DNA from: Schizophyllum amplum
Taxonomy: Eukaryota > Basidiomycota > Agaricomycetes > Agaricales > Schizophyllaceae
DNA: 64,000 bases
Assembly (NCBI GenBank): GCA_007026445.1
Contig: VDMD01000007.1
Location: 620,001-684,000 of the forward strand
Direction of reading: 5' to 3'
Numbering within the stretch: position 1 is the stretch's first letter; each line of letters begins with the position of its first letter. Below, in pieces: positions 20,843 to 62,826 of this stretch. Position numbers and translations under genes: made by a program. Under the pieces are notes generated by a model. That model searched no databases. It was not told the origin of the DNA and was given only the letters and a program-made list of their open reading frames with translations.

Positions 20843-20844
20843 AT

Positions 20845-29828: not shown

Positions 29829-31953
29829 ATGCAGACCCAAAATCAGACAGCGGGAGCACTGCCACAAATTCCAGGCTGGAGGACAGCGCAGAACGCACAG
29901 GCCCCAAATCATTCCTGGTGGCCGACATGGCAGGGTTGGGGTACACTCCCGTGGCGCAGGCAGCCCCGTGCTTACCCAGGCGCCACACAAGGTCAGCCTC
30001 TGCCGCCGGGGCCCACCGCACAACGACGCGGGCCGCGACCGCCTCCTCCGCTGAACAGGACTGCCCCCGGACAAAGACACGCACCTCCTGCGGCCATACA
30101 GAACGCGTACAATTGGCAACACAGACAAGGGCCCGCACCTCAGCGCGAGCAAGCGCATACACCCCAGACCACCGCGCCACAGCAAACGACTATTTTCTAT
30201 CCCGGGGCTGTACCTAACGGCCCTGCGGTGCATACAGTACCAGTGACTAACCAGACGCGAGCGCCCGATCCCGCTGCAGCGACGGTCCAGAACAACGTGT
30301 TGAGCGTGCCGCCGGTGCATCCCGCCACACATCGTCCGGCACCTACGTACCCGCGCACAACACCGGTCCAGGATAATGTGTTGAGGGTGCCGCCAGTACA
30401 CCCCGGCACAGAACGTCCCCCGGCACACCAGGCCGCAGCGCTGACGCCAAACCAGGCCGCAGCGCCGATGCCGACCCGGGCTGCAAAAGTGTACCCAACC
30501 GTCAGGCCTCGGCCAGTGACACCATACCCCGCTCCAGCGATGCTATACCACGCACCGACACCATATCACAGCTGGCCATCGCACTTGCCTCCGGGAAACC
30601 AGCAGGCGCACGGGCACAATCACCACGGGGCCGGGGGGCACCGCGACAATAAACGTCACCCTCATTTCGACGACGGTAACGACCGCGGCCACCGCATCTT
30701 GTTCCACGACAAGCGCAAGCCGCATTATGGGTTCACGAACCTCTCCAAGCATAATGTGTTTTACGATGGGAAACTATACCCGACAAGCGAGCATCTGTTC
30801 CAGGCCTTGAAGGTGCGTGGACGAGGATGGTGTCAAGGTGGTGAAGAACGGGGCGGTTTGATGGCAATAGAGGTGGGGGTTCACTTGTCAGAAGATCGGT
30901 GCGGCTGGGAGGTGGGCAACTTCACGTGCTGCTCGAGGCTGATGAGAGCCAAGGAGGGTGGGCGTTGGGGGACATAAGATCGAATGCTGCTGACGCCGCC
31001 TGCGAAGCCAGCACTGACGGCGCTGCAGTTCCTGAAGGTCAAGCCTGATCTCGCCGAGCACATTCGCATGTGCTCCGATAAGCCGCGCAGAGCGATTGAA
31101 GAGGCACATCGGCTTCGAAAGAGTCGGCGTAGTGATTGGAAGGACGTGAGGATCCGGATGGTGAGTGACAGGCATTTTGTGAGTTCGCGTTGAAGAGCGT
31201 TGCGTACGCCGCAGACTCGAGGACTCTCGTACACTTCATGTTGGAGAATGCCGTCCAGGGCTGATTCCATTGCGCAAAATCAATTGCGTCGCCCCCAGTT
31301 TCGTCCACGACCTGTCGCCCGCTGCGTACACCCTGCTAACACCCCCACAGATGTACAGAGCCATCCGGCACAAGTTCAAACAGCACCACACCCTGCGCCA
31401 GGAGCTGCTTGATACGGGGAATGCGAAGCTCGTTGAGGTGCGTCTGACGGATGATTGCGACGGAGTTTGAGTTTGTTGGAACGGCTGGAGTCTCGCCCAG
31501 GCAGCGGGAGACGAGGATTTCTTCGAGACAGTGTTCGCGAAATCTTGCGATGGACGGAAGCTTTGTCGATCGGGCGAGCCGCCGCGCGAGTTATCTGTTC
31601 CCGAGCGAACTCTACCAAGCTGTTTTCTCCGAAGCTATCCACCCTCGAGTGTTCCCTTGCCGAGCCGTCGCTTCCGGATCCGTCCTCTGCGAAGGTGTTG
31701 CCTACTGGCGTGATGCTGATGTGGTAGACGACTGCGTCAACGGTGGCTGGGCACGCCGGTGGTGGCTGGGCATGCCGGAGTGACGCAGATGCTCGTATAA
31801 TATCGCCCAACTGACCACCTCCGACAGGCCTCCCCAACTGACGACTTCTGGGGCATCGGCAAAGATGGGAAGGGCCGCAATGAGCTCGGCAAGGCGCTGA
31901 TGAGGCTACGCGATGAGTTTCGGCGGGAGGGTGGGCAAGGGCGGAAGGGATAG
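29829..31953 (+). CDS. NADAR-domain protein 1 with long Pro/Gln/His-rich N-terminus
   Basis: Four exons: 29829-30812, 31029-31160, 31351-31437, 31828-31953; about 442 residues. Residues 1-280 are Pro/Gln/Ala/His-rich and probably disordered, with a short internal duplication (VQNNVLSVPPVHP and VQDNVLRVPPVHP). The NADAR (YbiA-like) domain follows: RILFHDKRKPHYGFTNLSKH, LYPTSEHLFQALK, FLKVKPDLAEHIRM and the terminal block DDFWGIGKDGKGRNELGKAL. Characterised NADAR proteins are N-glycosidases that release ADP-ribose from guanine or act on riboflavin-pathway intermediates. The introns are unusually long (216, 190 and 390 nt against 50-70 elsewhere). Internal exons of 132 and 87 nt match the three other NADAR genes here. 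Confidence 0.85.
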
Positions 31954-32400
31954 GTCGAGGATGGGCGAGGGATGAAGGGGTGTGTTAAGCGAAGGTCGTG
32001 CAGGTGATGAGAGAGTGAGTCGGGTTGCTGATGCGGGGAAGCGATGACGAGATCATTGCCTGAAGGAAATGGTGGGCCGCCGGTGAGAGAAATTCTGTGA
32101 ATAGTGTGCGAGGCCGTCTAGTGTTCTGGTTCGGGGTTTCCGGTGTATTTGTAGTCATGACTGGTATATCGTTGGTGATCAAGGATGGGTGCCTTCTCAG
32201 GACTATGGACCCGGTGAAGGAGATCGTGAGCGTCGCGGTGCTCATCCAGAACGAAGTCGAATCCTAAGCGTGGCTGGCCGCACCGATCGTACGGAGTCCG
32301 TAAATTCGCCGTGCGCTGCTGCTGGTGCATATCGGATCCATGGATCAACGATAGAAAACAAGGGCGAAAGTATAGGCTCTTCCCGCAGCAAAGGACGATA
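31954..32400. other. Convergent intergenic region, NADAR 1 / VPS71
   Basis: About 450 bp between two convergent genes, holding their 3' regions. No coding or RNA feature is recognised. Confidence 0.5.
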
Positions 32401-33125
32401 TCACACCACGCGCTTCTCGCAGCGAGTCTCATCGTGCACGCCCAAGCAGTTGCGATCGCAGTAGGGCATCGCGCATCGCATGCACTTGTAGCGGCCCCAG
32501 TAGCCGCAAACAGAGCAGAACAAGCGCGGAGGATACGGAGGTGGCGGGCTGGCCGCAGTCAGGTAGGTCGGGCCTGACATCGTCTCGATTTTCTGTATGT
32601 TGAGTCAGTAAGAGTATTCCGAGCAGTCGAGACAAACTTGACAGTTGGCCAGACTGGATGGATGGAGAGCAACATGAATGTATAAAAACGCACCGACTTG
32701 TCCAAGAGGTTGTTGAAAGACGTCGAGTATAGCAGCGCAGAGCGCACAGCCATAACTGATTTCTTCTTCTTCGTCGCTGGGGAATTGCCGAGAAGGCGAA
32801 CCTTGCGCTCGTCTGTGATGGGGTAACGTGCCTTTCCCTTCGCATGACGCGACTTGGTGCTGCTTTCCCCGGCATCCTCGCCAGTGGCTTCGGTATAGTT
32901 AGATCGCTACCAGGGGGTCAGAGATATCGAGGGGGGCATGTCTTGAGCGTACTTCGAGTTCATCAAGGTGTCTTTTCGTTCTCTTTGCTAGGATCTCTGG
33001 TGCGAAATTGGATGAAGACGCGTTCACTTGGCGCTGTTCTGGCGAGGCGCTTTAGATTTATATAAGGTATATAAGAGGTGGAACGTACTCTGTTCACGCG
33101 CCTTCTTCGGAGGAAGGTAGGGCAT
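32401..33125 (-). CDS. VPS71: SWR1-complex zinc-finger HIT protein (Vps71/ZNHIT1)
   Basis: Four exons can be joined in frame to about 175 residues. The start is a 12-codon exon (MPYLPPKKAREQ); next comes a basic helix (LAKRTKRHLDELE), then a conserved block (YPITDERKVRLLGNSP ... TSFNNLLDKS) and a C-terminal HIT zinc finger with CSVC, CMRC, YCDRNC and HDETRC ligands, ending CEKRVV. Vps71/ZNHIT1 is a subunit of the SWR1 chromatin remodeller that deposits histone H2A.Z. Length and domain position are typical. The gene is divergent from the fusion gene to its right, with 204 bp between start codons. The first intron join is the least certain. Confidence 0.9.
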
Positions 33126-33329
33126 TTTGGGCAATGGGTTCAGAAACAAGAGTCGAACGATTGAACGGTGCCGGTGAGAAGACGGCGGCGCCGGTAGTCG
33201 GCCCGAGTCGGCCGATCATCACGCCATCGGTCAGTCATTCTATCTAAAAGGTTGACCAGGACTCGGAGCGCATTCACATCTTGTCGTTCCCCATCACCGC
33301 GACGACGAACAAAACAGAAATATCGGAAT
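33126..33329. promoter_or_regulatory. Bidirectional promoter, VPS71 / lyase-kinase fusion
   Basis: A 204-bp head-to-head gap between two housekeeping-type genes, so a shared promoter is likely. An in-frame extension of the right-hand gene back to 33252 exists but begins with TTG; the first ATG at 33330 was preferred. Confidence 0.5.
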
Positions 33330-36300
33330 ATGGCACCGACAATAGATCTGCGGGCGACTCGGGATCTCCCTACCCCAGAGCCCGACTCACCGTTGAGACC
33401 GCGAAAACCGTATAGGTTCTCGACCCTCTGCGCGACAGTGGAGAACCCGGCGCAAAAGGATCAGTACGGTAGCAGCTCCGTGCCCATCTACCAGACCGCG
33501 ACGTTTAAGGGCGTTGGGGGCCAGTACGACTATACCAGGAGCGGTAACCCTACCAGGAGTCATCTCGGTGCGCGTGCACTTCTCGCTCGTAAAGAGTGTA
33601 CATAGTATTGTCCAGGAGCTGACAAGACGCACAGAACATCACCTTGCCAAAATTTCATCCGCAAAGCATGCGTTCACCGTCTCGTCTGGAATGGCGGCGC
33701 TAGACGTCATTCTGCGCCTGCTCAAACCTGGAGACGAAGTCATCGCCGGCGACGATCTTTACGGCGGAACCAACCGTCTCCTCACCTTCATCAAGACCCA
33801 CGTTGGCGTGACGGTCCATCATGTCGATACCACCAACGCCGCGAACGTCCTCCCGTATATTCATCCGACTAAGACGGCCATGGTGCTACTCGAATCACCC
33901 ACGAACCCCCTCATCAAGATCGTCGACCTCGCGACTATCGCACAAGACGTGAAGGAGAAGGCACCGGGCGCCATCGTCGTGGCCGACAACACCATGATGA
34001 GCCCGTACCTCCAGCGGCCGCTCGAGCACGGATGCGACATAGTCTACGACAGCGCTACCAAATACCTGAGCGGACACCATGATCTCATGGCCGGTGTCAT
34101 CACTTGCAACCGCGACGACATTGCCAAGGTATGCTCCGAGCAGATGCATGCGTTACCCTTCTTGTCTAACATGCCCACTCAGAACTTGGCTTTCACGATC
34201 AACTCAGTCGGCAATGCGCTGGCGCCCATCGACTCGTTTTTGCTCCTTCGCGGCGTCAAGACGCTTGCCATCCGCATGGACCGCATGCAGAGCACCGCTG
34301 GCGTCGTCGCTACCTATCTTCACAACCTCGGCTTCAAGGTCAACTATCCCGGCCTGCCCAATCATCCGAACCGCGAAATCCACGAGCGCCTTTCCGATGG
34401 TAACGGCGCCGTGCTCAGCTTTGAGACTGGAAACAAGGAGCTCAGCGAGCGTATCGTCGGCAGCACCCGCCTATGGGGCATCTCCGTCAGCTTCGGATGC
34501 GTGAACAGCCTGATCAGTATGCCCTGTGTTATGTCGTGCGTGTGGACCGACTTGGCTGCCCGTACGACGTTTCTGACGATGATTATCTGTAGACATGCAT
34601 CTATCGACCCGGCGGTTCGCAAGGAGCGCGGTTTGCCTGAGGACCTCATCCGGCTGTGCGTCGGTATTGAGGATGCGTCAGACTTGCTGGACGATTTGGA
34701 ACATGCATTGTACGATGCAGGTGCCATCTCGTTCAATGCGGCGCAGCACAAGTTTGTTCGCACGCCATTGCCCGACTCTGATGAGGGATTGAGCCAAGCG
34801 ATTGACGGACTGGCCGTCGATGAAGATCACGAGACGGAGTGGTTCGTCAGCTCTCCCGGCAAGGTTATCCTGTTCGGAGAGCACGCTGTGGTACATGGTG
34901 TGGTAAGTTCGACGATGATCTTCTGTGGTGTGATGTTTAACAAGAGCCACAGACTGCCATCGCCGCATCAGTGGACCTCCGCTGCTACGGTCTCTGTTCC
35001 CCACGACACGATGGCAAGGTCTCGGTCCACTTGCACGACATCGACAACTTTGCAGGCGCATGGGATATTGAGTCCCTGCCTTGGGAGCACGCCACCCCAG
35101 TTGCGGCCGGAGAGACGCATCCAGAAGCCCTGAACTACAAGCTGATCGAGGCGCTGTACAACGGCCCGCTCAAGTCCCTCGCCGCCGACCGCTACCGCCA
35201 CGCCAAGAGCGCTAGCGTCGCCTTCCTCTACATCTATATGACCCTTGCCGGCCGCCGGCGCCCCTCCTTCAACTTCTCCGCCCGCGCGACCCTCCCCGTC
35301 GGCGCCGGCCTTGGCTCCTCCGCATCCTTCTCCACCTGCGCCGCCACCGCCCTACTCCTTCTCCACCGCCGCATCAGTGTTCCTCCCCCGCCCGCGCCCT
35401 CCTCGCAAGAGACCGGTCACGTGCATGTCTCGCACGGCGGCCGTCGCGCCATCCCCGCGGACATCGCCGTGGAGGTCAATGGCTGGGCGTTCGTCGCGGA
35501 GAAAATTCTGCACGGGAACCCGAGCGGCGTCGACAATGCGGTCGCTGTATTCGGTGGCGCACTCGCGTACACGCGCGGCGGGTTCGGGCGTCCCGCTGGG
35601 ATGGTGCCGATCCAGGGCTTCAAGAGCCTGAGATTCTTGCTGACGAACTCGCGGGTGCCGCGGGATACGAAGAAGCTGGTGGCAGGCGTGGGGGAGCTGA
35701 AGGAGCGCGAGCCGGAGATGGTGGGGAAGGTGCTGAAGGCGATTCAGCATATCGTGGACGAGGCGCATCGGGCGTTGGTGGATGCGGAGCTGCCGAGAGA
35801 GGACTTGCTACATGCGTTGTCGGTGAGCAAGGCTTGTCGGCAGCAGGGATGGTTTTGCTAACATCGGGGGTAGGCGTGGATCAACGAGAACCATGCGTAT
35901 CTCGTGTCGCTAGGGGTGTCGCACCCGACACTCGAGAACATCCGCGCGAAGACGGCGAATGCGCCGTACGGCCTCAGCACGAAGTTGACAGGTGCTGGAG
36001 GCGGTGGCTGCGCGGTGACCCTCGTTCCAGATGGTATGCATATTATCTCCGTTCACTTGCACTTGTAACATCACTGAACGATAATGTAGAATTCAGCGCC
36101 GAGAACCTCGCTGCGCTCGTTCAGGAGCTCGTGGACGCCAACTTCGAGCCCTACTCGACCTCCATCGGCGGCAGCGGCCTCGGTATCCTCTCCCCCTACG
36201 CGCATCATCGCAACTTCCATGAGTCCTCGCACATCGATGGCGTCGTCACACCGCCGGAGACGCCTGGTCCGGAGCTGTCCACGCCACCAGGGAGCGAGAA

Positions 36301-36412
36301 GGCGGCGGCGGATGATAAGCCACTACCGCCTCTGCGCTCAGCGTTTGAACGCACGTCGCTCACCGACTTGTCGGAGTGGGTGGATGGCCTCGGGCGCTGG
36401 CTGTTTGTATGA
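33330..36412 (+). CDS. Fusion: cystathionine beta-lyase + mevalonate kinase
   Basis: Seven exons (33330-33567, 33635-34128, 34183-34535, 34593-34902, 34953-35822, 35874-36033, 36090-36412) join in frame to about 915 residues. Residues 1 to about 405 are a PLP-dependent cystathionine beta-lyase (STR3-like): YTRSGNPTR, SSGMAALDVI, ESPTNP, the Schiff-base Lys in SATKYLSGHHDLMAG (about 220) and the SHASI block. After a linker of about 35 residues, mevalonate kinase (ERG12-like) begins near 445: SPGKVILFGEHAVVHG, GAGLGSSASFS, GNPSGVDNA and TGAGGGGCAVTL. One uninterrupted exon (34593-34902) encodes the lyase end, the linker and the kinase start, with no Met between them, so separate translation of the kinase is unlikely. 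The first half acts in methionine biosynthesis, the second in sterol/isoprenoid synthesis. Confidence 0.92.
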
Positions 36413-38674: not shown

Positions 38675-38760
38675 GGAGTTTGACTTAGCGGCGTATATAC
38701 AGTTCCCGAGAAACGTTGTCCAAGGAGTCAACAGAGCGGAAGATATATGACTTGTAGCAT

Positions 38761-40276: not shown

Positions 40277-42184
40277 TTAACTTACAATACTAGTTACCCC
40301 GAAAGCAAGAGCCACGACAGCGACGACCACATACACCAGCCAGTCAGCGGGAGAGGCGGCGGGAGCACCGACCGTATCCCGTCTGCTCTTCCTCCGCCCA
40401 TCATGTTCAACACTTGGCGAGCGCTCCCACGTGCTGTACACCCCGCTATGACTGGATACCCCCGATATACGAGCTGCGCGCGACTTGCCCGTCGATCTTG
40501 ACGCACCCGAATTACGACGCCCCGAGCGAACGCTCTCGGCGGGCTCATATGCGAGGGATGCTGCGACGGCGGGCCTTATCTGCGGGTTCATTAAACCGTC
40601 CGTCCCGGTGGGCAGGAGCGCACTTGCCTCGGCGTCCTCTTTGCGGAGCGCCTCGCGTAGACGCATGAGCGCCTTGCCCAGCTCATTGCGGCCTCGCCCG
40701 TCGTGGCCGACGCCCCAAAAGGCGTCCTTGTCCGAGTCCTAGGTGGGGTGAGGAGGGAGTTGAAGTCAAGTAGATCTATGCTAACGCACCTCGACGAGCT
40801 CGGCGGTTCCTGTCTGGAGCAACTCCTCACGCAGATCGAGATGTTGCGTAAACTTCAGACGAAGCGCGTTGTCCATCTAGTTGCGAGATCAGACAGATCC
40901 GGGTCGCTTTCCGCGCTGCTTACCATCTCGATGTTCACTTTGAGCCAGTCTGGGCGGACTTCTGGCTGAAAGCGCCGCGCCTCGGAGAAGGCGACGGCCG
41001 GCCTCCGCGACACCTTGCGGATGTGTTCGGCGAGCAATGGGCGATGGTCTATGAACTATATCCACCGCGTCAGCCGCATGCCGCAACACGGGCCCGTTAT
41101 CCCTGACCTTGGACGCCTGGAACAGGTGCTCGCTCGTGGGATACATCTTCGCCCTATACTCGACAGGATGATCGGAAAAGTTGGTGAAGCCATAGTGCGG
41201 ATCGTGCTTGTGGTAGAATAGAATACGTTCGGGTGTCCGGGAGGCGACGGAGATTTGGCTGGAGCGGGGGCTTGTAACGGTGTAGGTATTGTGGTAAGGG
41301 GTAGAGCGCATGCCGACAGGATCTGCGCTGACAGGTCGGGAGGAGGCCAGGCTCGCTGGGCGAGGGTATGGCGCATTACGCTTGCCGGCGCTTGACGGAG
41401 GGCTTTTGTAGCCGGGGGAGTAGGAGTGAGGGGCGAGGGAGCCAGTGCTGGCGTACGCATTCTCGCGGCTGGTCGCTTGTGTGGGTAGCACCGACGACAT
41501 GGGTCTGCGCGGATCCTTTTGACCCCTCCGCGAGGATTGGTCGCCCATGGTCGGTGAGAAGCTTTGCCGCTTTCCGGAATTCGGGCAGCTGTGCGTCTGT
41601 AGGTCGCGTTCGACGTGCACGAATTCGTCGCGTTCGGCGCTCGCCTCCCTGTCGATGAAGCCTAGGCGCCGCTGCCGGGGGCGTGCAGTGCTCTCCTCAT
41701 AATGGTCCTCAGTGGTCTGTGGCGGTGCTGCAGTGACGACAACGGGAGACATGGGCGAATGCGCAACGGGGCTTCCTGGTTCACTTGGAATGTCCCCAAC
41801 CGCCTCTGAATGAGCGGACGAGTATGGCGGCTTGACCCCAGACGTGTACTCCTGTGGTGTACTGACAGACAGAGTGGACAGTGGAGAGAGCGTGGAAGTC
41901 GAAGCAGCCGGGGTGAGAGCGCTCTCGAAGCGTGATGAGGTAGGGGTAGTTGGAGCGGATGAGGTGGGCGTGTGCATCGCGCGAGGATCGCGAGGCTTGA
42001 AGGTGATCTGGCAGCCGTGGGGCACGTATATCTGGACGTCACCGTTCTCGGCAGTGGTCACCGTCGCTTGGCGAGGATTATCGACCTCCGGTGGGGGGAT
42101 CTCGTCGATTTGAACTATGAGGGGTGTATCAGGGTTGAAACCGCCCGTCAAGGGAGCAGCTGCAGTGGGAGGGAGCGCAGACAT
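40277..42184 (-). CDS. NADAR-domain protein 2 with C-terminal membrane tail
   Basis: Exons 41108-42184, 40924-41055, 40790-40876, 40277-40738; about 585 residues. Residues 1-320 are Ser/Thr/Pro-rich and probably disordered, except a conserved-looking start (LIVQIDEIPPPEVDNP). The NADAR domain follows: RILFYHKHDPHYGFTNFSDH, MYPTSEHLFQASK, WLKVNIEM and DAFWGVGHDGRGRNELGKAL. After about 80 basic/Ser-rich residues the protein ends in one hydrophobic span (WLVYVVVAVVALAFGVTSIV), so it looks tail-anchored, probably to ER or another membrane with the enzyme facing the cytosol. It is divergent from PARP gene A with an 824-bp gap. Confidence 0.88.
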
Positions 42185-43008
42185 GCAATGCGGGGTCTAT
42201 AGATGTCGATATTGAGTACTGCGGATGTCGATAAGTGGGGGATCGTAGTGGTTTAGAAGGCGGGTCAGAAACAAGGAGCTCGGCAGTTTATGTGGCAGGC
42301 GGGCTACGACAGACGTGCTCTTAGAGGCGCCCAGGCATGAGGAGAAGCTGAGGGGAACGTATACGCACAGCGATAACAGCGCGCTCCCCTTCATTCCTCC
42401 ACGTTGATCAGGCGAGGCGTCGGTTGGTGCCGGCTACTGCTTCTCATATATGAGCTGCACGTGGCTGCTGCATGTACGACTCCCGGGAACGGGAGCAAAA
42501 GCGCCTGGGAAGCGCCAAATGTCGCTTTTGAAAGGAGTCACTTCAGAACTCTCCGAGGACGGAGGACCGAAGAGAGTGGCGTCTAACTGCAATGATCATT
42601 GACTCCGCCGGCCCGCTGGGCCGGCAAGGATCTGCTTCCGTCTTCCTGCTTGTTCTTTACTTTCACTGCTTGATTATTGGCGCCTCTGCTTGCCGCTTGA
42701 GTTCTGCTTGAGCTCCAACCTCACAAGAGTACCATATGTGGCACTCCTCAGTGCACGATGAACCTCTACACAGGCCCGGGCTCTCGGTCGAAGTGTGTAG
42801 CTAGGGGATAACGCGGCGAAGGCAGCCTTCCTTGTTACTACATACGGCAGCCAGGTAGGCGTGGGCTGCCTCATGGGCCTCAGGTGAGACGATCTCGATA
42901 ATCTCCTTATGTGCAAGGCGTGGCTTCCGCAAGCAAGCACCCGGCTAACTATAAGTTTCACCAGAGCCTTGACTGTCCCATCCACACTATCGGCATTCGC
43001 TGGTCGCT
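42185..43008. promoter_or_regulatory. Divergent intergenic, NADAR 2 / PARP A
   Basis: An 824-bp head-to-head region that must hold the promoters of an eraser-type and a writer-type gene. No ORF or RNA gene is recognised. A GC-rich inverted run (GGCCCGCTGGGCC, about 42610-42625) is the only visible local structure. Confidence 0.45.
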
Positions 43009-44824
43009 ATGCCTGCTCTACTCAACTCCTACCAGCCCGCATATCTCTGCGACGTGAGTTCTGGTAGACCGCTACCTCTGCGCTCGCTCACTTCGCCCGC
43101 AGCATTGTCATTCGAGACCTAGGTACAGGGCTGGCGGCAGCGCGTATAAATATTGTGGCAGGACGTGCGCCAACGCAGCTGAGAAATTGTGTGATGTGCG
43201 TGTCATGCACCGTCTCTTACAGCGAAGAAGCTCACACTATCTGCAGTACTGTCACGCTCGTCCAAAGCACAGGGAAGGGAAGAGGGTATACCCATGCTGC
43301 AGCAGGCTCTGCGCATCATCCGCCGCCGAGGCAGCAGCCAAGGCCGCCGTAGCCACGACGCCCCTACTACGACGCTCCTCTTCACCTGTTCCCACCGCGG
43401 CAGATTCATCAAGTAGGCCATCTTCTCGCTCCATCTGGGCCATCCAAGTTGACCGACTAAGCAGTGCCAACGTGCAAGGTCGTAGACTGCGGCAGCCCGG
43501 TCTATAAGAAGAGCGATGGAAAGCTGTCCGAATACTGCTCACTGAAGCATAGGAAGTGCGTGGCCAACTGTGCATTCCGACTCCTGATTGACCTCCGAGC
43601 CCAGTCTGGCGGAACACATCTGCCTACTATGTCGCAAGACGGGCACGGACAGGGTGTCTGCGTACTGTGGCAAGGCCTGCAAAGACACGGCGCAGGAGAA
43701 GGGCCCGCTAGTCCTCAAAGTGCCTGTCGATCATGATCGCTTCCGTAGTGGTGAGTTCTGCTAGCAGCAGCTCCCCTTGTGCTGCGTACTACCTCGGCGG
43801 CGTTGTACTGACTTGATCACGCAGTTGCCCGCCAGTTTCAAGACTCCTGGAGGCACCGCTCGTCCATACCCCCGGTCAGAGGTGTCTACATGATTCAGCC
43901 TCCCCGGGAGGTCGTTGACCAGTATAAGGAGTACCGGTACGTGCCGTGTTCGCTTCGAGCTGCTGCTGCCCTTCCTCATTCCGCTGTCTCTATTCATTCC
44001 CGACCTGCTGTTCATTCCCGACCTGTTGTTTCCACTCCCGATCTGCTGCCCATCCCCGACCTGCTGCCGAAACTGACTCCCGTCGCAGCGAGGAAGTCGA
44101 GGGCCGCGGCCACTTCACCGCGCAGAACCTGACGAAAGGCAATGAGCACCGGCGCTGGCACGGGACGAAGCGGCAGTGCCGCCTCGGCGATGAGGGCCAG
44201 ACAAGTCTTTGCGACGCGCCTACGTGCGCTCTGTGCAGCATCATCCGGACGTCGTTCGACTTGCGCTTCTTTAAGGGGAATACGGGGTGGGGAAGGTAAG
44301 TGGGCAACTATTCTTCCAGTACTCAGTCGTCATGCCTCCTGAATTTTTGCTCAACCAATTAACAGATTCGGCAAGGGTCTCTATACCTCCTCAACATCCT
44401 CGAAGTGCGTTACTATGGTTTGTTTGGGCAGCTGAACTGACCTCCTTACCCTCCCAGATCCAACGATTACTCGGCTAACCTTGGCGAAACCCAGAGCACC
44501 TGCAAAGCCGTGCTCCTGACCAAGGTGGTGGTGGGAAAGGGGTTCAAGGTCCTACACAACAATACGAAGCTGACTGAGCCTCCGCCGGGGTATGATTCGG
44601 TGCGTGTTGCTGCTCGAGGCTCAAGGCTTGCGTACAATAACCTGTCGACGCCTATGCTCCTGGCTCGGCGTTTGAGGCACGTGCGCCGGGAAAAGAGAGA
44701 CTGAACTGATCACTCTTTGCAGCTGATCGCGGAAGTCGGCGGCGACCTCAACTACGACGAGTTGGTGGTATATCGCAATGAGGCTATCAAGCCAGCGTAT
44801 CTCGTGGTCTACGACTCGCGGTAG
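43009..44824 (+). CDS. PARP-type ADP-ribosyltransferase A with four Cys-rich fingers
   Basis: About nine exons, roughly 430 residues. Four finger modules come first: LCDHCHSRP ... YKYCGRTC; LCDYCHARP ... PCCSRLC; TCKVVDCG ... SEYCSLKH; HICLLCRKT ... AYCGKACKD. The repeated CX2C ... [YF]C[SG]X2C pattern resembles FCS/TRASH-type zinc sites. A linker (VARQFQDSW ... YMIQPPREVVDQYKEYR) leads to a PARP catalytic fold with the H-Y-E triad: His in RRWHGTKRQC, Tyr in FGKGLYTSSTSSKSNDY, Glu in LNYDELVVYRNEAIKPAYLV. A Cys cluster between H and Y (CDAPTCALCSII) recurs in its paralogues and may bind zinc. Presumed to transfer ADP-ribose from NAD+; substrate unknown. No WGR domain or macrodomain was seen. 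Confidence 0.85.
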
Positions 44825-45495: not shown

Positions 45496-46211
45496 TAAAC
45501 TCCGGCCATTGTTCTGAACCCTCACACCGTGCACTCGTTCTCCTCGTCACCTACACATAGTATGCGTGTGCAGGTCATTCAGATGACTTCATGATGTACA
45601 ATCGACCTTTCGTGGTCGGACTGAGCGCTAGCTCTATCCTTTCGATCGTGGCCTAGGAGTGTCCCACTGGGTGATCTCTTCCATGTCGAGGGCATCCGGA
45701 CGGCGACTCACAGATGAACGCATAGGTAGCATACAGATTGACATTAGCTGCGTCAACCTCGCTACTTGCCACGAGCCTTGCTAGCGACTCCATTACCTCA
45801 GAAAATGACTGTTCCGCACGTTGTCCGGGAATGATGCACCATACGCTTCACGACGGCGATGAGGCCTCTATAACGTTGTCCTTTCCCATCGTGCTCTTTG
45901 AGCCGAATTCCCTAGCATGCCGTCTCTTGTGTTCTCTGGTCGCGAGCTCGACCAATACCGGCGGGTACGTTCTAAGAGCTTTTACTGCTTCAGCCAGTTT
46001 GACCTCTGACTTCTGTATAGCGACGTAATGCAGCACCGTCTCCGGATAGTTTTGGCATCGACTTCCAACAATGCCCATACTCATGTAGTGATGCCTCGTC
46101 TTGCAAGGTATGATGTCGTCTTATCGTTATGCGTTGCTCTCAATCACTGAAGTAAATCCCAACGCGTAGCTCCGTTGTCGCGTCGCAGAGGCGCCACGAA
46201 GCGTCTTCAGC
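45496..46211. other. Region upstream of PARP B, possibly eroded exons
   Basis: About 700 bp in which the first finger modules of PARP B would be expected by analogy with PARP A and D. Only weak Cys-containing fragments are visible and I could not assemble modules. No other gene is seen. Confidence 0.35.
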
Positions 46212-47468
46212 ATGGAAGATAGCCCGTCTGCGGTTTCGTCAGGTGGCGCCCTGCGTGTGAGAAGAGGCGTCGATATTAGCGGTGGGGCACTTGAACGATG
46301 TATGAGTTCCATATCTGACGTACGCTTTATCAGAACTCTTTATGCCTGCGAGCAAAGTGTCTCAAAGCCGCGGACAATCTACGCTGCTAAGCATATCGTG
46401 CGCTTATACCCTGCCCTTCTTCTCTCCTTTCTCACTATCTGGTTCAGAACCTCTGCAGCCCGCTCTTTCTGCCTCATATGTGGCGCGAAACCCCAACATC
46501 AGCGCGCTTTGATTTGCAGCATGGCATGCGACGAGAAGGTTCGGCTGAGGGGACACAAAATCATGCGCATCCCCTATGACCACGCAAGCCATAAGAGCAG
46601 TGAGCATTCTCGACTCTCCCGACAAGGTATCTGACCGTGATCAGTTGTCAATCAATTCGAATCATCCTGGCGGCACACTGGAAAGAAGTGTCCTGCTGTG
46701 AAGCATGTATATCTAATTGTTTCACCCAAACTCGTTGTCGATCGCTACGAGGCTTATAGGTGAGCCGAGCAGCTTACTTCAACTTGCAGCTCTATCATCC
46801 TCTAAACGCGAGTGCTCAGGGAAAGGGTAGAAGCGCGTGGCAACTTTGCTGCAACAGGTCGCTCTGCGGGAAATGAAAATCGTCGGTGGCATGGTACCAG
46901 ACGCGAATGCGATCTGGGCGAAGACGGACAGACGGAGCCATGCACGTTACCGACGTGTTCGCTGTGCAAAATCGTCCGCGAGTCGTTCGATCTGAGATTC
47001 TTCAAGGGCAGGACTGGTTGGGGCAGGCGAGTCTTCCTGTTTATCACTCAGTGGTGGTGACGTCCGTCTTACGAGCTCAGTAGATTCGGCAGAGGGATCT
47101 ACACCTCGTCGACATCCTCAAAGTGAGCGAGCTCCCTGGTTCTCGCTGCAAAATTTGCTGAGTGACGTTCTTGAAGGTCTGACGACTATGCTTGCGACGC
47201 GACCGCGCAGTCGTCGCTCAAGTCGATGATTTTGGCCAAAGTCGTCGTCGGCCGGGGTTGCAAGATGAGATACGACGACACCACGCTGACCGCGCCGCCA
47301 CTTGGATACGATTCGGTAAGTCCACGTTCGCTGTCCTCGGATCTAGTCCCATCACTAACCTACGGCCAGGTTCTTGGCGAGAAAGGCGCTCGACTGAACT
47401 ATGATGAGGTTGTAGTGTACTCGAACGAGGCCATCAGGCCGGCCTACCTGATTTTGTATGAGGTATAG
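46212..47468 (+). CDS. PARP-type ADP-ribosyltransferase B, N-terminally reduced
   Basis: The catalytic part is complete: RRWHGTRREC (His), the 39-nt exon with FGRGIYTSSTSSK (Tyr), VVVGRGCKM, APPLGYDS and LNYDEVVVYSNEAIRPAYLI (Glu), plus the inter-motif Cys cluster (CTLPTCSLCKIV). Only the last finger module is clear (FCLICGAKP ... ICSMACDE), followed by the linker (VNQFESSWRH ... YEAYR). An open frame from 46212 runs in phase into that finger and was used as the start, but it is uncertain. The intron after GWGR (near 47028) begins GCGAGT instead of GT, so a GC-AG intron is inferred. It may be a functional short form or a gene losing its N-terminus. Confidence 0.72.
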
Positions 47469-48249: not shown

Positions 48250-48300
48250 TCATCGACCGCAGCACTCGCGGGACGTGTAAGTGCATGCCCTCGGTAAGTA

Positions 48301-48699: not shown

Positions 48700-48735
48700 T
48701 ATCATATCATAGCTGACAGTGATAATGCAGTCTTT

Positions 48736-54879: not shown

Positions 54880-55262
54880 CTGGTCGTTAGGGTTAGGGTT
54901 AGACATCGTCACGTTCAAAAAGGAACCTCGGCCGAAGCCGAGGGGCGCCATCGCCTCGTCGCTACACGCCCCATTCACCACCCGCCATGATAGCAAGTAG
55001 ATCCGAAGGCGAGTATTACCGCCACCCCAGTTAATGCACACGTCGCAGCTCCACACCCCAACTGCGCAAGCCAGAGGAGTCGCACCGAAGTACTATCCTC
55101 AAGCAAGTGCCCGGAGTGACCCGAAATGCCGTCCTGGTCGCAGTCCACGACGAGACGCGGAGCAGAGAGACGCACAAGGAGGAGTGTCCTTATATAGACG
55201 GCGAGGGGATATCACGTGTCTTGCTCAGTCAGCCTTCTATTGTTCTACTTTGGGACCAGAGT
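54880..55262 (-). repeat. Duplicated promoter-plus-hairpin block, copy 2 (possible ncRNA gene)
   Basis: Inverted homologue of 45090-45495. It keeps the AAAGTAGAACAATAG motif, CACGTG (55213-55218), a TATA box (55188-55198), the hairpin with UUCG loop (54926-54943) followed by a T run, and a longer telomere-like tract reading CTAACCCTAACCCTAAC on the minus strand (54886-54902). It lies about 120 bp downstream of NADAR gene 3 on the same strand, mirroring copy 1 behind PARP A. Similarity stops after the telomere-like motif. Confidence 0.6.
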
Positions 55263-55378
55263 CTTGGCAATGGCCTCGCTCTCGAAGAAACCTCAGCTCG
55301 CCAGGAGGCAATGTCAGTTGTATGCGTGGTAGTCGGTACAAAGTACACAAAGCTATAGCCGCAGGGAGGTATCGTTGC

Positions 55379-56276
55379 TCAGTCAAGGGTGGTGCGACGC
55401 CGTAGTCTGTCTCTCAGCCTTCCCAATGCCTTTCCGAGTTCGTTCCTCCCGCGCCCGTCCTTGCCGATGCCCCAAAATGCATCAACAGGAGAGTCCTGAG
55501 TGTGTGATATGAGTTGCTGTCCACTATCAGAGACTGAGAGAAAGCCCACCTCCACGAGCTCCGCGTTTCCTGTGGCGAGCAGCTCGTCACGCAGCTCCTT
55601 GTGCTGAGTGAACTTGTGGTAGATCGCCTCGTCCATCTAAGGGTAGTTCAGTACTAGATGGGCTCAGAGCGATGCAGATACCTACCATGTCGATATTGAC
55701 CTTAAACCAGTCCGGGCGCTGCTGGGGTTTGAGACGACGCGCCTCTGATAATGCATCTCGCGGCCGAGGTGAGCACGTGCGTATGTGCTCCACGAGCTCA
55801 GGATGTGTATCCATGAACTGCAGCACTGTAAGTCCGAGCGGCATGACGCGAGAGCACACGCCACTCGCCTTGAAAGCCTGGAATAGATGCTCGCTTGTCG
55901 GGTATATCTTGCCCTTGTACTCGACTTGGTGCGAAGAGAAGTTCGTGAACCCATAGTGCGGCTGATTCCTGTCGTAAAACCCAATGCGCTGACGCGGGCG
56001 TGCTGTTCTGGGTGCCGGGCGAGGGGACTCGTCCCGCGGGCCAGGGAATTGGCTCTGCGACGACGGTGACGGCCCGCGCGTCGACGTCGCGAGGAACGTG
56101 TCGGCGGTCCTGTATGGCTGAGGGATGTTCGTGGTGATATTGGGGTATGTGCGTTGCGCCATTTGAGGCTGCTGGCCAATACGCTGGACTCTGCGGGGTC
56201 CGGGAACCCCGTGCAAGCTCGCATCGTTGGGATAAGGAGGGCGCGCCATTGTCGTTCTGCACATGCCTGATCGCAT
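55379..56276 (-). CDS. NADAR-domain protein 3
   Basis: Exons 55869-56276, 55686-55817, 55550-55636, 55379-55495; about 247 residues (238 if the Met at 56249 is used). A Pro/Arg-rich N-terminus of about 100 residues precedes the NADAR domain: QRIGFYDRNQPHYGFTNFSS, IYPTSEHLFQAFK, FMDTHPELVEHIRTC, DWFKVNIDM and DAFWGIGKDGRGRNELGKAL. Intron 1 (51 nt) starts GC (GCGAGT) and is in frame without stops, so retention would simply add 17 residues. No membrane tail is present, unlike NADAR 2. The gene is divergent from PARP C, with a MITE between them. Confidence 0.88.
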
Positions 56277-56791
56277 CTAGGGTGAGATTGCTATGTATGC
56301 CAGACAGAGAAGATAGACTCACAATTCAAGGGCTTAGCTACCGCAAGAGTATCAGTACTGACGGGGCGGCTGGACTCTCGACGAGGGGAAAGGCTATACG
56401 AGGAGAAAGAGAGGCGGCCTTTATGGATGGATCCGGATTCCGTAGCACTTGATGTCCTCGTGTAAGCCGCGCATCCTCCAATGTGGCTATGAATCGTCCG
56501 TTTCATGAATGCAGCCAGCCGGTGAGCGAATGGGACGAGCACGAGGCGGCGTAGCAATGCCTCGCGAATGCCGCATGCACCGGTCGGCGCCCAATGTGGC
56601 TGCTTCCCGCGAACCTCAGCCCAGTTCATGCTCAGAGAAGACAAAAGTCTTCTGCGCAGTATTGTCCCGTGATCTGGTTACAACAGAGCGAGGCTACTTA
56701 CAGCGATCAATGCATGGTGACTTGAAGTCTTGAACGAGAACAATGGAATTCCCGGCCCGGCGACAGCCGTCAATAGCTGCCGCTGTGACTA
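56277..56791. other. NADAR 3 upstream region
   Basis: About 510 bp between NADAR 3 and a TA-flanked MITE; presumably promoter. No gene recognised. Confidence 0.4.
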
Positions 56792-57358
56792 CCGTCGTGT
56801 GACGGGTAATGCAACACTTTTGGTCCACCAGCCACCGCTGCTCGTAATCATATTCGATTCTCTAGGAAATAATCACAGTACATCTTGGCATGAATATGCG
56901 CTACCACGATTTTTTTCAGAGCCCAGGAGTGAGGAGCAAATGTGTGCTGAGGGCGGCTCATTTCGGGGGTGTAATGCAACAGGCCATAACGCTGTGACGG
57001 GACCCAATGCAACACGCTCTTCTGTGCGTTGAATCCTCGTTTTCTCGCCAAAGCAAAGAGATAGAAATACTCCTATCATGATTTGCTTACGCCCCTAATA
57101 TTCTGGAGAATTAAGAGCCAAGATTGAGCGTGTGATGCCCTCGGTGCCAGCGGCAAGGGCCGTGAGAGAGCGATTCGAGGTGGTCGTGATTTTCTGCATT
57201 CTGCCCCAGAGGTTGGGGGGCCTTCAAACTTTACCACAGTATCTCAGAGTGTATGCCCTATCATCCTATGAAGTCTCTAAGAAATTGGCCCTCGTTTCAT
57301 TGTCCGGGAACGGTTTGTTGCATTACCCACAACTGTTGCATTACCCGTCACACGACGG
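56792..57358. mobile_element. TA-flanked MITE (family 1 relative), 567 bp
   Basis: Terminal inverted repeats of about 24 bp: CCGTCGTGTGACGGGTAATG at the left and the inverted copy at the right, flanked by TA (56790-56791, 57359-57360). Internal partial copies (ACGGGACCCAATGCAACA near 56996) repeat the end motif. It shares the layout CCGTC ... ACGGG ... ATGCA.CA with the MITE at 48301-48699, so both probably belong to one TA-target family. It separates the divergent genes NADAR 3 and PARP C. Confidence 0.85.
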
Positions 57359-57360
57359 TA

Positions 57361-57687
57361 CGTGACTAAACATCACATACTTTCTTTTCCCCATCATGTT
57401 CAGTTGTTGTAGCTGTTCATAAAGGCGTATTGGCTGCACGATTACCGCTCGGTCTGTTGCCACCTGTCTTTCATCAGTATGCTTTGTACTACGGTAGGTA
57501 ATAAACCACCGATCTGCACGGTCACCGCGCATTGTGTCGAAACGGGGTTCTCGGCCATGCGACAAACACGCTTCCACCGTCGGTGGGACCGCAGCGACGT
57601 GCAGGGACGATTTTTCTCTTCTCCCGCCACATGAAGCTCCACATGGTACTTAGGTGAGGAGCGCACTCCACATCTCCTACCTCCAAC
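57361..57687. promoter_or_regulatory. Proximal upstream region of PARP C
   Basis: About 330 bp between the MITE and the PARP C start codon. No clear TATA box or other motif is identified. Confidence 0.35.
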
Positions 57688-59256
57688 ATGTCGGCGTCGA
57701 CGCCTCACTACAAGGACTATCCTTTTGCTCACTGCGCGGACCTGCGACGTCCGAACCTCGGGCGCCTCAAGGGGCTCTCGCGGTCAGATCCAGAGTATGA
57801 TCAAGGTGAGGATGCGCATGAGCTTTATCCATGTTACTAATGCGTTCGTCAGTTTTACAGTTCTTCCTAGCGGGGTGGCTTCACCCTCACAAGCCCGTTC
57901 CGGATGTCCTCGATGTATACAAGCTTCCTCAGCCCTCAAGAAGCGTCAAGGCATACGAGAACTACAGGTAACGCCTACTGCATCTTATGCTCGGGATTAT
58001 TCCTCAATCGCGTCTGTGTACAGGGATAAAGTTACGTCTGAACTTCGTCGCTCACGCAAGACCTCGTCCGCCAACGAGACGCTGCTCTTCCACGGCACTC
58101 GACATACCTGTCTAGGTGATCCAAGCCTGTCAGGGACTTCCTTGTGCGACCGCTTCAGCTGCTACTCATGTGGTGTCATACGCGCTTCGTTCAAGAGAGA
58201 CAGATGCGGTACGCTCAACTCACGAGGTCTTAAACGTCAACTCATCGAAATCACAGGTCAGAGGCACTCGTTTAAGCGGTTGGTTCAACGAAGTATGCGT
58301 AAACGATGTCGTCTGATGCCCTCTTCAGGTTCGGCACCGGTATCTATGTCAGTTCTTGCTCTTCTAGTACGTTGTCACCCAGATCGACGGTTTCCCAATC
58401 TCTCATCTTTTCGCAGAAGCAGACGACTACTTTGACGACGGCGGTACCGACCCCGGAGTCCGCACGCTGCTAGTCAACAAGGTCGTCCTGGGACAGCCGC
58501 TTGAGCTACGCTTCAGCGATCCAAGTATCAGCGAGCCTCCACCGGCCCGCCACTCTGTAAGTGAGCCTACTGCACCCGCGTCAGCACGTTGTACTCACAG
58601 TATAGGTCATCGGGCTGCCCGGTGGAAATCTCAACTACCCGGAGACCGTCGTCTACGACGAAGACGCCATCCGGCCGGCCTACCTCATCAAGTATCGGTA
58701 CGACACGACTGTCAACGCAACGGCGACACCACCAGATACTTGCGCCTGCGCGACGGAGGTACCATGGGAGACCCAGGTCGACGGGTAAGTGATTTGCCTG
58801 ACTTTCTCTTTTGCCCATCTCACATCATGATCACAGGCTTGATATGCTGAAGAGCTTCATCCAGGGCGTTGACGGCGTCCTTCGGGGCGTACCAATCCCC
58901 GTCAACTTGAGACTACCGCCTCGCGGAGGATCGGACTCGGAGCGCATCGCGAGTACGCAGGTGAACGCAGAGGAGCGTCCAACTTCTCATCGGCGAACCG
59001 GCACAAGTCGTGATTTGACGGAGCAGAGCAACAGTGACCCTCCGAAGGCGGGGCGCGGGAAGGAGTGCGTTCCATTCAAAGTTTTCTGACTACGTTCTAA
59101 TCCACCCTCAGCATAATGTCTTTGTTCCGCAGCATCTGGTCTGACGATGTCGTCGAAGTGGAGGTCGCTGCCAATGTAGATGACTCCTCGGATTCGGATG
59201 GCGACGAGGAGAAGGACATCTCGGTGCTGATCTCCCAGTTTGCTTTCTTGTCGTGA
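57688..59256 (+). CDS. PARP-type ADP-ribosyltransferase C, finger-less, with acidic C-terminal tail
   Basis: About nine exons, roughly 390 residues. There are no N-terminal finger modules; the protein starts near the linker region (FFLAGWLHPHKPVPDVLDVY ... YENYR). The catalytic triad is conserved: His in LLFHGTRHTC, Tyr in FGTGIYVSSCSSK, Glu in LNYPETVVYDEDAIRPAYLI. The Cys cluster between the first two motifs is kept in altered form (LCDRFSCYSCGVI). Unlike the others it has about 115 extra residues, ending in an acidic segment (VEVEVAANVDDSSDSDGDEE). A short 16-nt exon upstream of the Tyr exon is needed to hold the frame; that join is the weakest part of the model. Confidence 0.8.
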
Positions 59257-59717
59257 ATGGGTATGTTCTCGAGGTTTATCTATTCTATCCCCGTGATGCT
59301 TTGCTGCTATTGTATGCTACTTTGTCATATATCTGGATCTATCCTATGGGCGAATTTCTTGATCAACTCGTGTACTCACCAGAGCCGCCATGTGAGGTAC
59401 GCAGGTTTTTTGCACTCCGTACCGCTATTCTGAACGTTACGATGGTAGTGATCGTGAACTCAAGTTCTCCTTTCTGTCATCGAGAGGAGAAACCGCGACG
59501 TGTTAGTGAGGCTGCCGGCATTGGCGGGTATCGATGTTGCCAAATCAACACGCGTCAAGCAGCACCTGCGCCTCGTGTTAGCAGCATGCCCCGCAGCCTA
59601 CTAGGTTTCACGCATCGTGGACGCCTTGCTGGTCATAGCGTATATCAGGCTTCAGGGACGCCGTCGAGGCATTGCTAGACTCATTCTCGACGCACCCAGT
59701 CGTCTCATCTCAACATC
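59257..59717. other. Intergenic, PARP C to PARP D
   Basis: About 460 bp in head-to-tail orientation between two PARP genes. No recognised feature. Confidence 0.4.
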
Positions 59718-61283
59718 ATGGCCGCGCCCCTATGCGACGTACGCATTCTTTTTTCGCGGGCAGTGTCGCATGTACCCGAGCTCACCCTGGTTTTCAGAAT
59801 TGCTTCATGCAGCCAGCTGTCTCTGGGTCGGCGTATTGTGGGAAGGCGTGTGAGGACAAGGATAAGTGCGAGGTGCGTGCTGCGCGTGAGCTCTGCGAGG
59901 AGGCGATCGTTGATTTGCGTGGCAGCTCTGTCACAAGAAAACTAAATACAAGGGCGGCAAGCGGCCTTCGGCGTTTTGCAGCATGTCCTGCGCGGACAAG
60001 GCGAAGGCGAAGTCCTCGCCGTCTAGATCTCCATCAGTGAGCACCTCCTCGACCGCGAATGGGCCAGGTGAGCGTCGTATAATATATGATTATTTACATG
60101 TCCGCTGGGCTAACATTCGGCATACAGCGTGCGCTATTCTCGGATGCAAGCGCGCCGCTCATCAGAATACGGACGGTACTTACGGGCGCTACTGCTCGAC
60201 CTCGCACAAAAAGTAGGTGTAAGTAAAGACGAGCATCTCACCGTATCCTGATTCCTGCATAGACTCGGCCAGAATATTTGCCTGTACTGCCGTAAGGGCG
60301 AGAAGCGCGGAAACTCTGCGTTTTGTAGCCGCACCTGCAGAGACGAGGCGGCAAAGAAAGGCCCGCTGCTCCTAGAAATCCCCTCGGACCACAATGTGTT
60401 CGCCAGCGGTACGTGTGACTTCGGTCAACGTGAGTCTGTCGTAATGATGGCGTTCAATGGCAGTCGCCAAGCAGTTCAGCGACACTTGGAGACACCCGAC
60501 GCGCTGCCCCGCCGTGAAGCGTGTCTACAAGATCATACCTAGTAACGCAGCTCATGACCGATACGACAATTACCGGTAAGTCTGCCGCACCTAGGCTCTC
60601 GCTGCTCTCATTCAAGTACTTCCCAGTGCAACGGTCGAAGCGCGTGGAAACTTTGCAGCCCAGGGAATGACGGCGGGCAACGAGCAGCGCCGCTGGCACG
60701 GCACGAAGCGCAACTGCACGCTAGGCGACATGGGCCAGACGACTATGTGTGGCGATCAGACGTGCAGCCTTTGCAGCATAATCAAGACCTCCTTCGACCT
60801 GAACCTCTTCGGCAAGAATACGGGCTGGGGCAGGTAAGCGACATCACGCTTCACCGCCGTATCAGCCCAACTGACCGTGGCTAGGTTCGGTAGGGGTATC
60901 TACACTTCGTCGACATCCTCAAAGTGAGTGTGGGCGAGTTGCATCAGCCGTTGGTTCTCATAAGTCACAGGTCGAACGACTACGTGTCCAACCTCGCGGC
61001 CAGCGTTGCATCGCCATTGAAGGCGATGCTGCTTAACCGCGTCGTAGTTGGGAAGGGCGACAAGACTTATTTCAATCACTCGACATGGACCAGTGCACCG
61101 CCTGGATTTGACTCCGTGAGCTACATACCGAGAGGAACTGCCTCTATGATGCTGACGGCGCATGTGCAGGTCTTGGCAGAGCCCTTGACTATTCCGCTCG
61201 CAGGCGCCCTGAACTATGACGAGGTGGTCGTCTATCGCAATGAGGCCATCCGACCTGCCTACTTGATCATGTATAAGGCTTGA
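59718..61283 (+). CDS. PARP-type ADP-ribosyltransferase D with four Cys-rich fingers
   Basis: About nine exons, roughly 400 residues. The finger modules come in the same order as PARP A: LCDNCFMQP ... AYCGKACED; LCHKKTKYKG ... AFCSMSCAD; CAILGCKRA ... YCSTSHKK; ICLYCRKGE ... AFCSRTCRD. The linker (VAKQFSDTW ... YKIIPSNAAHDRYDNYR) precedes the catalytic domain: His in RRWHGTKRNC, Cys cluster CGDQTCSLCSII, Tyr in FGRGIYTSSTSSK (39-nt exon), VVVGKGDKT and Glu in LNYDEVVVYRNEAIRPAYLI. All triad residues are intact, and this is the cleanest PARP of the set. It is convergent with NADAR 4, whose stop lies about 630 bp away. Confidence 0.87.
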
Positions 61284-61915
61284 CGACCTACCGCATGGAA
61301 TCTCAGTGCTTGGCTATAGCGTCTCCACTAAGTACTTGCTGCGCTGGTCGCTCGCTCATTGTATTCAAGTTTTAGTAACTGCAAGCTCTCGTGTTGTCGT
61401 TCACGCTCCCCATTAATGCACTACTGCTTAGCATATTTTCTTCACGACCTACATTGTTTCTAGAAAGTCTGATTTACGTGAAGGGATACTTACTCGGACT
61501 TCCAAACTTCGTTTGCGGTGGATACAGCACGTGCATGCGGTCGCAGACCTCGGAATGTTGAACGTAGGTGAACGCAGTTCAATAAAGAGTCGTAGCTTGG
61601 TGAATTTGGAAGCAAATCACGAGAAAAATGGGCTACTCATTCTATCCAGTGGCTTCCCTGCAGTACACATGGTACATAAGATAAGATACTTATGCCGAAC
61701 TCGACAGCCAGCCGTTGAATAGAGCGAACAAAGACACTCCTAAAGGCGTACATGGATGGCATGGATCGGTATATAGAGCATGGACGCATAAATATGGATG
61801 GTAAGGGCTTCGCATCTGGCTGCTGTGGGCCGACAAGCCGGCAGGCTGTTCTCGCAATCAATTCTGGTCGTACGGTTAGAAGTCCGCATAAGGCAAGAAG
61901 TGCGCGCTCACCTTT
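61284..61915. other. Convergent intergenic, PARP D / NADAR 4
   Basis: About 630 bp holding two 3' regions. No repeat, RNA gene or ORF is supported. Confidence 0.45.
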
Positions 61916-62826
61916 TCATCGCCTTTGATTGCGCAATTTCGTCCTCAGGCGCATAAGGGCCTTGCCCAGCTCGTTTCGTCCCTTCCCGCTCGTCCCGATG
62001 CCCCAGAACGCGTCCTGAGCCGAGTCCTACTTCGCGATCAACACGCTTTTCGACCAAAATATAGCCGGGCAACACACCTCTACTAGCTCCGCATCTCCTG
62101 TGGCCAGGAGCTCCCCACGCAGCGTTGCGTGCTGCGTGAATTTATGCTCAATGACAAGATCCATCTATCGCAGATATCAGGTACTCAACGCAAAGAAAAG
62201 GATAGGATAGAATACCATCTGCACATTGACCTTCTTCCAGTCCTTACGCTCCTCCTTCTGAAAGCGATGCGCCTCCGTAAAGGCCGAGCGCGGATTAGGC
62301 AAGGCCCTCCGGATATGCTCGGCTATCTGAGGTCGATGGGGCAGGAACTAGACGTACGCCATATGAGCTTCGGCACCCTCGCTTGACGTTCGCAAGCGGA
62401 ACGCACCTTGAGCGCTTGAAACAAATGCTCGCTCGTAGGGTAAACCTTACCCTCGTAGGTCACGGGGTGATCGGAGAAGTTGGTGAAGCCATAGTGCGGA
62501 TCGTGTTTGTGGTAGAAAAGAATGCGCTGCTGGGCAGAGGGATACGCTGCCTTGCCAGCCTGAGAACGGCCACCGTGTTGGCGGGGAGTCGGTAGACCGC
62601 GAGTGGTCGGCGCTGTCGTCCGCGGTGCATTGCCTTTCGCTGGAAGACACCAGTACACGGGATTGAATATGCGGAATGGGGAGGGACGCGCGGTTTTGTT
62701 CGAGGGGGCACGTCCACCAGATTGTGGCGTCTGCGCAAACGCAGGAGAGCGGCCCGCCCCTGGAGGAACGTGTTGGCTTCGGGCAGATTTACTGCCAGCG
62801 GTTTGACGCCGCGAGGGGGCGGGCAT
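61916..62826 (-). CDS. NADAR-domain protein 4
   Basis: Exons 62407-62826, 62216-62347, 62078-62164, 61916-62026; about 249 residues. A basic, Pro/Gln/Ser-rich N-terminus of about 100 residues precedes the NADAR domain: RILFYHKHDPHYGFTNFSDH (identical in this block to NADAR 2), VYPTSEHLFQALK, FLPHRPQIAEHIRR, DWKKVNVQM and DAFWGIGTSGKGRNELGKAL, ending RTKLRNQRR. No membrane tail. All exon joins keep frame with GT-AG introns. Internal exon lengths equal those of the three paralogues. Confidence 0.88.

Follow-up and report, generated by a model that had tools for sequence, protein, structure and literature searches.

A 64-kb stretch of DNA from the agaricomycete Schizophyllum amplum, which is related to the split-gill mushroom (contig VDMD01000007.1, positions 620,001 to 684,000; hereafter the window, with coordinates counted from its first nucleotide) carries four NADAR genes and four genes for PARP-type ADP-ribosyltransferases (ARTs) that possess the H-Y-E triad. 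These genes had been reported in a first-pass annotation of the sequence, together with two head-to-head pairs, and this placement is borne out by gene models, profile matches and the triad columns of the alignment. The pairs are NADAR2 with PARP A, divergent and 824 bp apart, and NADAR3 with PARP C, divergent with ~1.4 kb between them. The array extends beyond the window on the same contig (C277), where PARP E, PARP F and NADAR5 are added, and its members are as follows.

29829..31953, plus strand: NADAR1, spliced model with exons 29829-30812, 31029-31160, 31351-31437 and 31828-31953
40277..42184, minus strand: NADAR2, spliced model with exons 42184-41108, 41055-40924, 40876-40790 and 40738-40277
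42185..43008, no strand: divergent intergenic region of NADAR2 and PARP A, 824 bp, bounds taken from the gene models
43009..44824, plus strand: PARP A, complete spliced model of 10 exons, four Cys-rich fingers, H-Y-E
46458..47468 (core), plus strand: PARP B, finger 4 and catalytic domain, H-Y-E
55379..56249, minus strand: NADAR3, spliced model and PF08719 match, exons 56249-55869, 55817-55686, 55636-55550 and 55495-55379
57688..58698 (core), plus strand: PARP C, divergent in sequence, H-Y-E, frames and junctions judged by eye
59718..61283, plus strand: PARP D, complete spliced model of 10 exons, four Cys-rich fingers, H-Y-E
61916..62826, minus strand: NADAR4, spliced model with exons 62826-62407, 62347-62216, 62164-62078 and 62026-61916
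C277:685.7-687.1 kb, outside the window: PARP E, H-Y-E
C277:693.6-695.1 kb, outside the window: PARP F, triad Y-Y-D
C277:764.7-765.6 kb, outside the window: NADAR5, the fifth NADAR of the array

PARP D and NADAR4 are convergent (tail to tail), NADAR4 and PARP E are divergent with ~2.9 kb between them, and the mixed orientations of the array argue against a simple block duplication. Of seven NADAR loci detected across the 49.65-Mb genome, five fall inside ~116 kb of C277 and two lie outside the array, on C1 and C112, and all genes found with the catalytic part of the array PARP family lie inside the same ~116 kb; these genome-wide counts are lower bounds, as scoring covered the best candidates only. 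This concentration of NADAR and PARP genes exceeds chance. Other PARP-domain genes on C79, C223, C166 and C35 are unlike the array family (tblastn at 0.01), those on C166 and C35 having identical scores and possibly being copies of one region.

Domains and catalytic residues of the two families

By sequence, the array PARPs are assigned to one Agaricomycete family, whose members combine a tankyrase-like catalytic fold and an internal Cys4 motif with as many as four Cys-rich fingers. Both the PARP catalytic fold and the family profile were matched, PARP being the sole family that matches all 62 members, and the H-Y-E triad is present in PARP A-E and in 62/62 relatives in the alignment. PARP A (PF00644, 8.6e-10) has S. 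commune P0019 and S. fasciatum P0053 as its closest named relatives among the matches listed, and PARP D is matched by S. commune P0001 (77% over 100%) and also by S. amplum P0002; the introns of PARP A and D are GT-AG and follow an identical phase pattern of 0,0,1,2,1,2,2,2,0. PARP B was recovered by tblastn with PARP A as the query (3.5e-63), and its model covers the core only, with a possible upstream start at 45917 and exons before 46458 not placed. PARP C shares 28-39% identity with the other array PARPs, no N-terminal fingers were seen in the frames around its core, and its open frames run on to ~59256 in one automatic model. PARP F (loci L022/L023), with Y-Y-D in place of the triad and splice sites that look intact by eye, is a candidate pseudoenzyme.

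The finger part gave weak matches in a minority of members, to zf-FCS (7/62), zf-HIT (5/62), RPAP2_Rtr1 (9/62) and EsV_1_7 (6/62), and the best E values of the finger-family matches, other families included, were about 0.003 to 0.006. A true tankyrase was considered and rejected, given that there are Cys-rich fingers in place of ankyrin and SAM domains: only PARP was matched in PARP A and P0001 at E up to 1, and across all 62 members neither ankyrin nor SAM is among the 25 families shown out of 30. In tankyrases a Cys/His cluster binds zinc. This cluster follows the FGxGIY motif in the alignment, whereas the Cys4 motif of the fungal PARP precedes it. Among the matches listed there was no fusion of PARP with NADAR, in a search whose length limits would miss many fusions, and none of the 79 pattern matches in viral contigs or the 44 in prokaryote genomes proved to be a relative of the aligned PARPs by tblastn. 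Gene-like frames at C277:819.3-820.3 kb (L038 ~1800-2800, minus strand) show four Cys-rich fingers in the PARP order and may represent a finger-only relative, no catalytic domain being seen nearby, and a short stretch at C245:157.15 kb (L039 1650-1742) is similar to finger 3 of PARP D and looks like a relic.

NADAR1-4 are classified by sequence as YbiA-type, with the NADAR fold and profile. The spliced model of NADAR4 matches S. amplum P0121 from end to end without a difference (PF08719, 8.6e-39), and its best matches by sequence and by fold are YbiA (2b3w) and a Phytophthora NADAR (8bau), with 7e-31 by sequence and TMt 0.78 for the structure model against 2b3w. Escherichia coli YbiA shares the NADAR fold and the catalytic residues, with 43% identity to NADAR4 over the structural alignment; the fungal proteins differ from it in their long N-terminal extensions, their linkage to PARP and, in NADAR2, a hydrophobic C-terminal tail. 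Five residues (E43, K50, E125, D130 and W133) have been described around ADP-ribose (PMC11543638), and their equivalents are kept in NADAR1-4 and in 45/45 relatives in the alignment. The catalytic Glu equivalent to E125, as aligned to the 8bau chain, is found in NADAR1-5 and in 45/45 relatives, never replaced by Asp or His.

Three phase-0 introns occur at matching places in all of NADAR1-4; those of NADAR1 are GT-AG, and intron 1 of NADAR3 (55818-55868, minus strand) is GC-AG. The NADAR domain of NADAR1 (PF08719 matches at C277:651.4-651.9 kb) comes after an N-terminal extension rich in Pro and Gln. NADAR2, with PF08719 above its cut-off and S. fasciatum P0210 as its closest relative among the matches listed, has a long N-terminal extension and ends in the hydrophobic tail WLVYVVVAVVALAFGVTSIVS; the automatic model has a different end and one extra intron compared to the spliced model used here. 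This hydrophobic end (40277-40400, minus strand) could serve as a membrane anchor, and frames after the C112 NADAR (L033 ~5099-5240) likewise show a hydrophobic stretch. The NADAR alignment also contains a conserved N-terminal motif, YRxExRxRTxYVTSDxPP (consensus), as a possible docking site. Two-domain NADAR proteins account for 20/161 of the matches listed (Mycena, Phanerochaete, Crucibulum, Cyathus and others; most of P0122-P0140, plus P0242, P0243 and P0251), and in Crucibulum and Cyathus the PARP contig also carries a two-domain NADAR gene.

Linkage across Agaricomycetes and expansion in Schizophyllum

Linkage was counted among the best 120 of 419 PARP matches and, in two NADAR lists of 672 and 662 matches, among the best 120 of each, a shared contig being inferred where the PARP and NADAR records give contigs of identical bp length. 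Rows from unnamed metagenomes or assemblies, those lacking an NCBI contig, and the rows of S. amplum and S. commune were left out. PARP and NADAR lie on one contig in 38 of the 48 other species present in both lists, where 2.3 would be expected by chance with 30-Mb genomes and at most 10 were obtained in 200,000 simulations; the species are related, so that 38 does not equal 38 independent events, and the nulls use assumed sizes of genome and chromosome. Where the PARP contig does not exceed 600 kb, the two genes share it in 23/26 species, as against 2.7 expected if both were always located on one 3-Mb chromosome. With a 1-Mb chromosome the expectation rises to 8.1, and 0/200,000 simulations reached 23. 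Whole-chromosome synteny was therefore rejected as the sole explanation, as was the idea of tandem copies of one gene beside unrelated NADARs, given the linkage in other species.

In the four species with positional locus tags on both records (Leucoagaricus is tagged on the PARP only), PARP and NADAR are adjacent in Leucocoprinus birnbaumii (1 number apart), and their tags differ by 2, 3 and 18 in Stygiomarasmius scandens, Amanita phalloides and A. inopinata, respectively. Hence the check proposed with the first-pass annotation, a search for a conserved NADAR and PARP neighbourhood in agaricomycetes, came out positive, both in the sharing of contigs and in tags 1-18 apart in 4/4 species. Since the sharing species span Agaricales (A. 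phalloides), Polyporales (Wolfiporia, Grifola), Hymenochaetales (Rickenella) and Jaapiales (Jaapia), the linkage is probably old in Agaricomycetes. Among the 10/48 species that do not share, three are represented by different strains or assemblies by name (Agaricus bisporus, Ephemerocybe angulata and Lentinula raphanica), and in S. fasciatum the contigs are at most 8.1 kb.

The array is a Schizophyllum expansion. Among the matches listed, 74/80 other species have one member of the array PARP family, which suggests that a linked pair may be the rule and the array the exception; the common Agaricomycete form lies at a distance of 0.8 from PARP E and of 1.15 or more from A, B, D and F. Paralogues of the array are 28-53% identical among the PARPs and 51-70% among the NADARs. 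Close counterparts of both PARP A and PARP D exist in S. commune, and NADAR2 and NADAR4 are likewise represented in S. fasciatum or S. commune, so that much of the expansion predates these Schizophyllum species.

The other window matches in and around the array are ordinary, including PIG-N, a Cys/Met PLP enzyme, a GHMP kinase, an NmrA-like protein and a sugar transporter, with a DSS1-like match below its cut-off. A retrotransposon pol-like frame (4642-7872), a Plavaka transposase frame (16072-16980) and a frame with an aspartyl-protease domain (20797-23694), all on the minus strand, were also observed in the window.

A candidate writer–eraser module and other readings

By analogy, the nearest precedent of the fungal pair would be the YarT–YbiA system of myxobacteria, in which an H-Y-E transferase likewise lies beside a YbiA-subfamily NADAR with a catalytic Glu, and in which the linked YbiA rescued YarT toxicity and, in the excerpted results, K-12 YbiA, C7 NADAR and DarG did not (PMC11125620). 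YarT is a small Rhs-toxin-like transferase encoded in a bacterial operon, whereas the fungal enzyme is a tankyrase-like PARP with Cys-rich fingers, from intron-bearing genes known from sequence alone. In DarTG1 an ADP-ribosyltransferase, DarT1, is likewise genetically linked to a NADAR; the diagnostic position of this NADAR is occupied by Asp (PMC11543638), where the fungal proteins have Glu, and DarT toxins are described as highly diverged from PARPs (PMC11833690). A DarT1-type pair, comprising a DarT-type transferase and a BC4488-type NADAR with Asp, was rejected on account of this Glu and of a transferase that is PARP-type by profile and fold. Genetic linkage, one criterion of ART–NADAR toxin–antitoxin pairs, is found for the fungal pair as well.

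With a probability of roughly 55%, we read each PARP–NADAR pair as a writer–eraser module and take guanine in DNA or RNA as its likeliest target. The PARP would transfer ADP-ribose from NAD+ to a target chosen with the help of its N-terminal Cys-rich fingers, and the linked YbiA-type NADAR would hydrolyse the N-glycosidic ADP-ribose bond and reset the target, a reversal that would keep PARP activity tolerable or transient; many Agaricomycetes retain a linked pair of this kind, which Schizophyllum has multiplied. Guanine appears the likeliest target by analogy, because the NADARs that have been assayed hydrolyse guanine adducts in nucleic acid (PMC11833690; PMC11125620), and, in the excerpted results, the guanine linkage was not reversed by the macrodomain- and ARH-type hydrolases assayed alongside (PMC11833690). 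The earlier claim that PARP writers are matched by NADAR erasers is strengthened by the kept catalytic residues of both enzymes and by the conserved linkage, and is so far partly supported; the roles proposed along with it, in genome conflict, antiviral or anti-transposon defence or nonself recognition, are hypothetical. Writer activity, substrate, action of the NADAR on the PARP product and biological role are all inferred from sequence, folds and linkage.

Several observations weigh against the writer–eraser reading. Tankyrases modify proteins, and a tankyrase-like catalytic fold would be just as compatible with a protein target. The part containing fingers 3-4 does not exceed the catalytic part in basic character (both average +4.4 per 100 residues, in 61/62 members), and so gives no evident sign of nucleic-acid binding by the PARP. 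The triad of PARP F reads Y-Y-D instead of H-Y-E and the D130 position of NADAR5 is taken by Asn, indicating that not every array copy is a standard enzyme, and k-mers of 11 start regions were not above random stretches as a sign of a shared upstream motif. For all 48 species, the same-chromosome null predicts 15.5 (3 Mb) or 29.1 (1 Mb) sharing species as against the 38 seen, a number reached in 30/200,000 simulations with the 1-Mb chromosome. Moreover, six non-sharers could not be put down to strain or tiny contigs, namely Collybia nuda (contigs of 347 and 161 kb), Favolaschia, Leucoagaricus (45.5 and 55.3 kb), Lyophyllum shimeji, Mycena capillaripes and M. epipterygia; the listed NADARs of M. 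capillaripes, M. epipterygia and Leucoagaricus are all two-domain, and a single-domain NADAR may therefore be off the list.

It is also conceivable that the two genes are linked and biochemically unrelated, a housekeeping NADAR clearing reactive riboflavin intermediates and the PARP modifying proteins, with common regulation or a slow loss of gene order accounting for their proximity. This we regard as unlikely, though the YbiA-type likeness of NADAR4 to 2b3w, the riboflavin role proposed for bacterial and plant YbiA-type proteins (cited in PMC11543638) and the tankyrase-like fold of the PARP would all suit it; the linkage on short contigs is far above the same-chromosome null, both families are expanded within one Schizophyllum array, and the NADAR loci on C1 and C112 could do the housekeeping. 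Less likely still is a locus of conflict or allorecognition, a diversifying toxin–antitoxin-like system in which the PARPs poison a cell, virus or transposon that lacks the matching NADAR. The old and diverged paralogues, the triad-deviant PARP F with seemingly intact splice sites, the D-like fragment on C245 and the toxin–antitoxin nature of DarTG1 and YarT–YbiA (PMC11543638; PMC11125620) are consistent with such a locus, but the single PARP listed for most other species fits an endogenous pathway, and with near counterparts of A and D in S. commune turnover is not obviously fast. Soluble ADP-ribose derivatives have been proposed as substrates of viral NADARs (PMC9503650), and the fungal NADAR might similarly act on cyclic or free derivatives downstream of PARP or NAD+ turnover rather than on a macromolecular mark; the guanine adducts hydrolysed by the NADARs assayed in PMC11833690 and PMC11125620 speak against this, and we hold it to be improbable. 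A broader proposal would make the pair a eukaryotic, chromosomally encoded counterpart of the bacterial ART–NADAR systems: mushroom-forming fungi would mark guanine of native or invading DNA or RNA reversibly with ADP-ribose by means of a finger-guided PARP and the NADAR next to it, and the Schizophyllum array of matched pairs would have diversified for defence or nonself recognition. This is in our judgement doubtful.

Transferase–NADAR pairs are known in bacteria, and the fungal PARP–NADAR version appears to be new, in that no description of it was found among the papers listed in searches of the open-licence literature, which leaves out most subscription papers. The terms “basidiomycet,” “Coprinopsis” and “Laccaria” are absent from the excerpted text of a 2010 survey of the PARP family (PMC2964712). 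What NADARs do in eukaryotes has been stated as unclear, in the excerpted text of PMC11125620, and a transferase kept beside NADAR across many Agaricomycetes provides a concrete candidate partner for eukaryotic NADARs. The question whether reversible ADP-ribosylation of nucleic-acid bases is a normal eukaryotic process becomes testable in species such as Schizophyllum commune and Coprinopsis cinerea.

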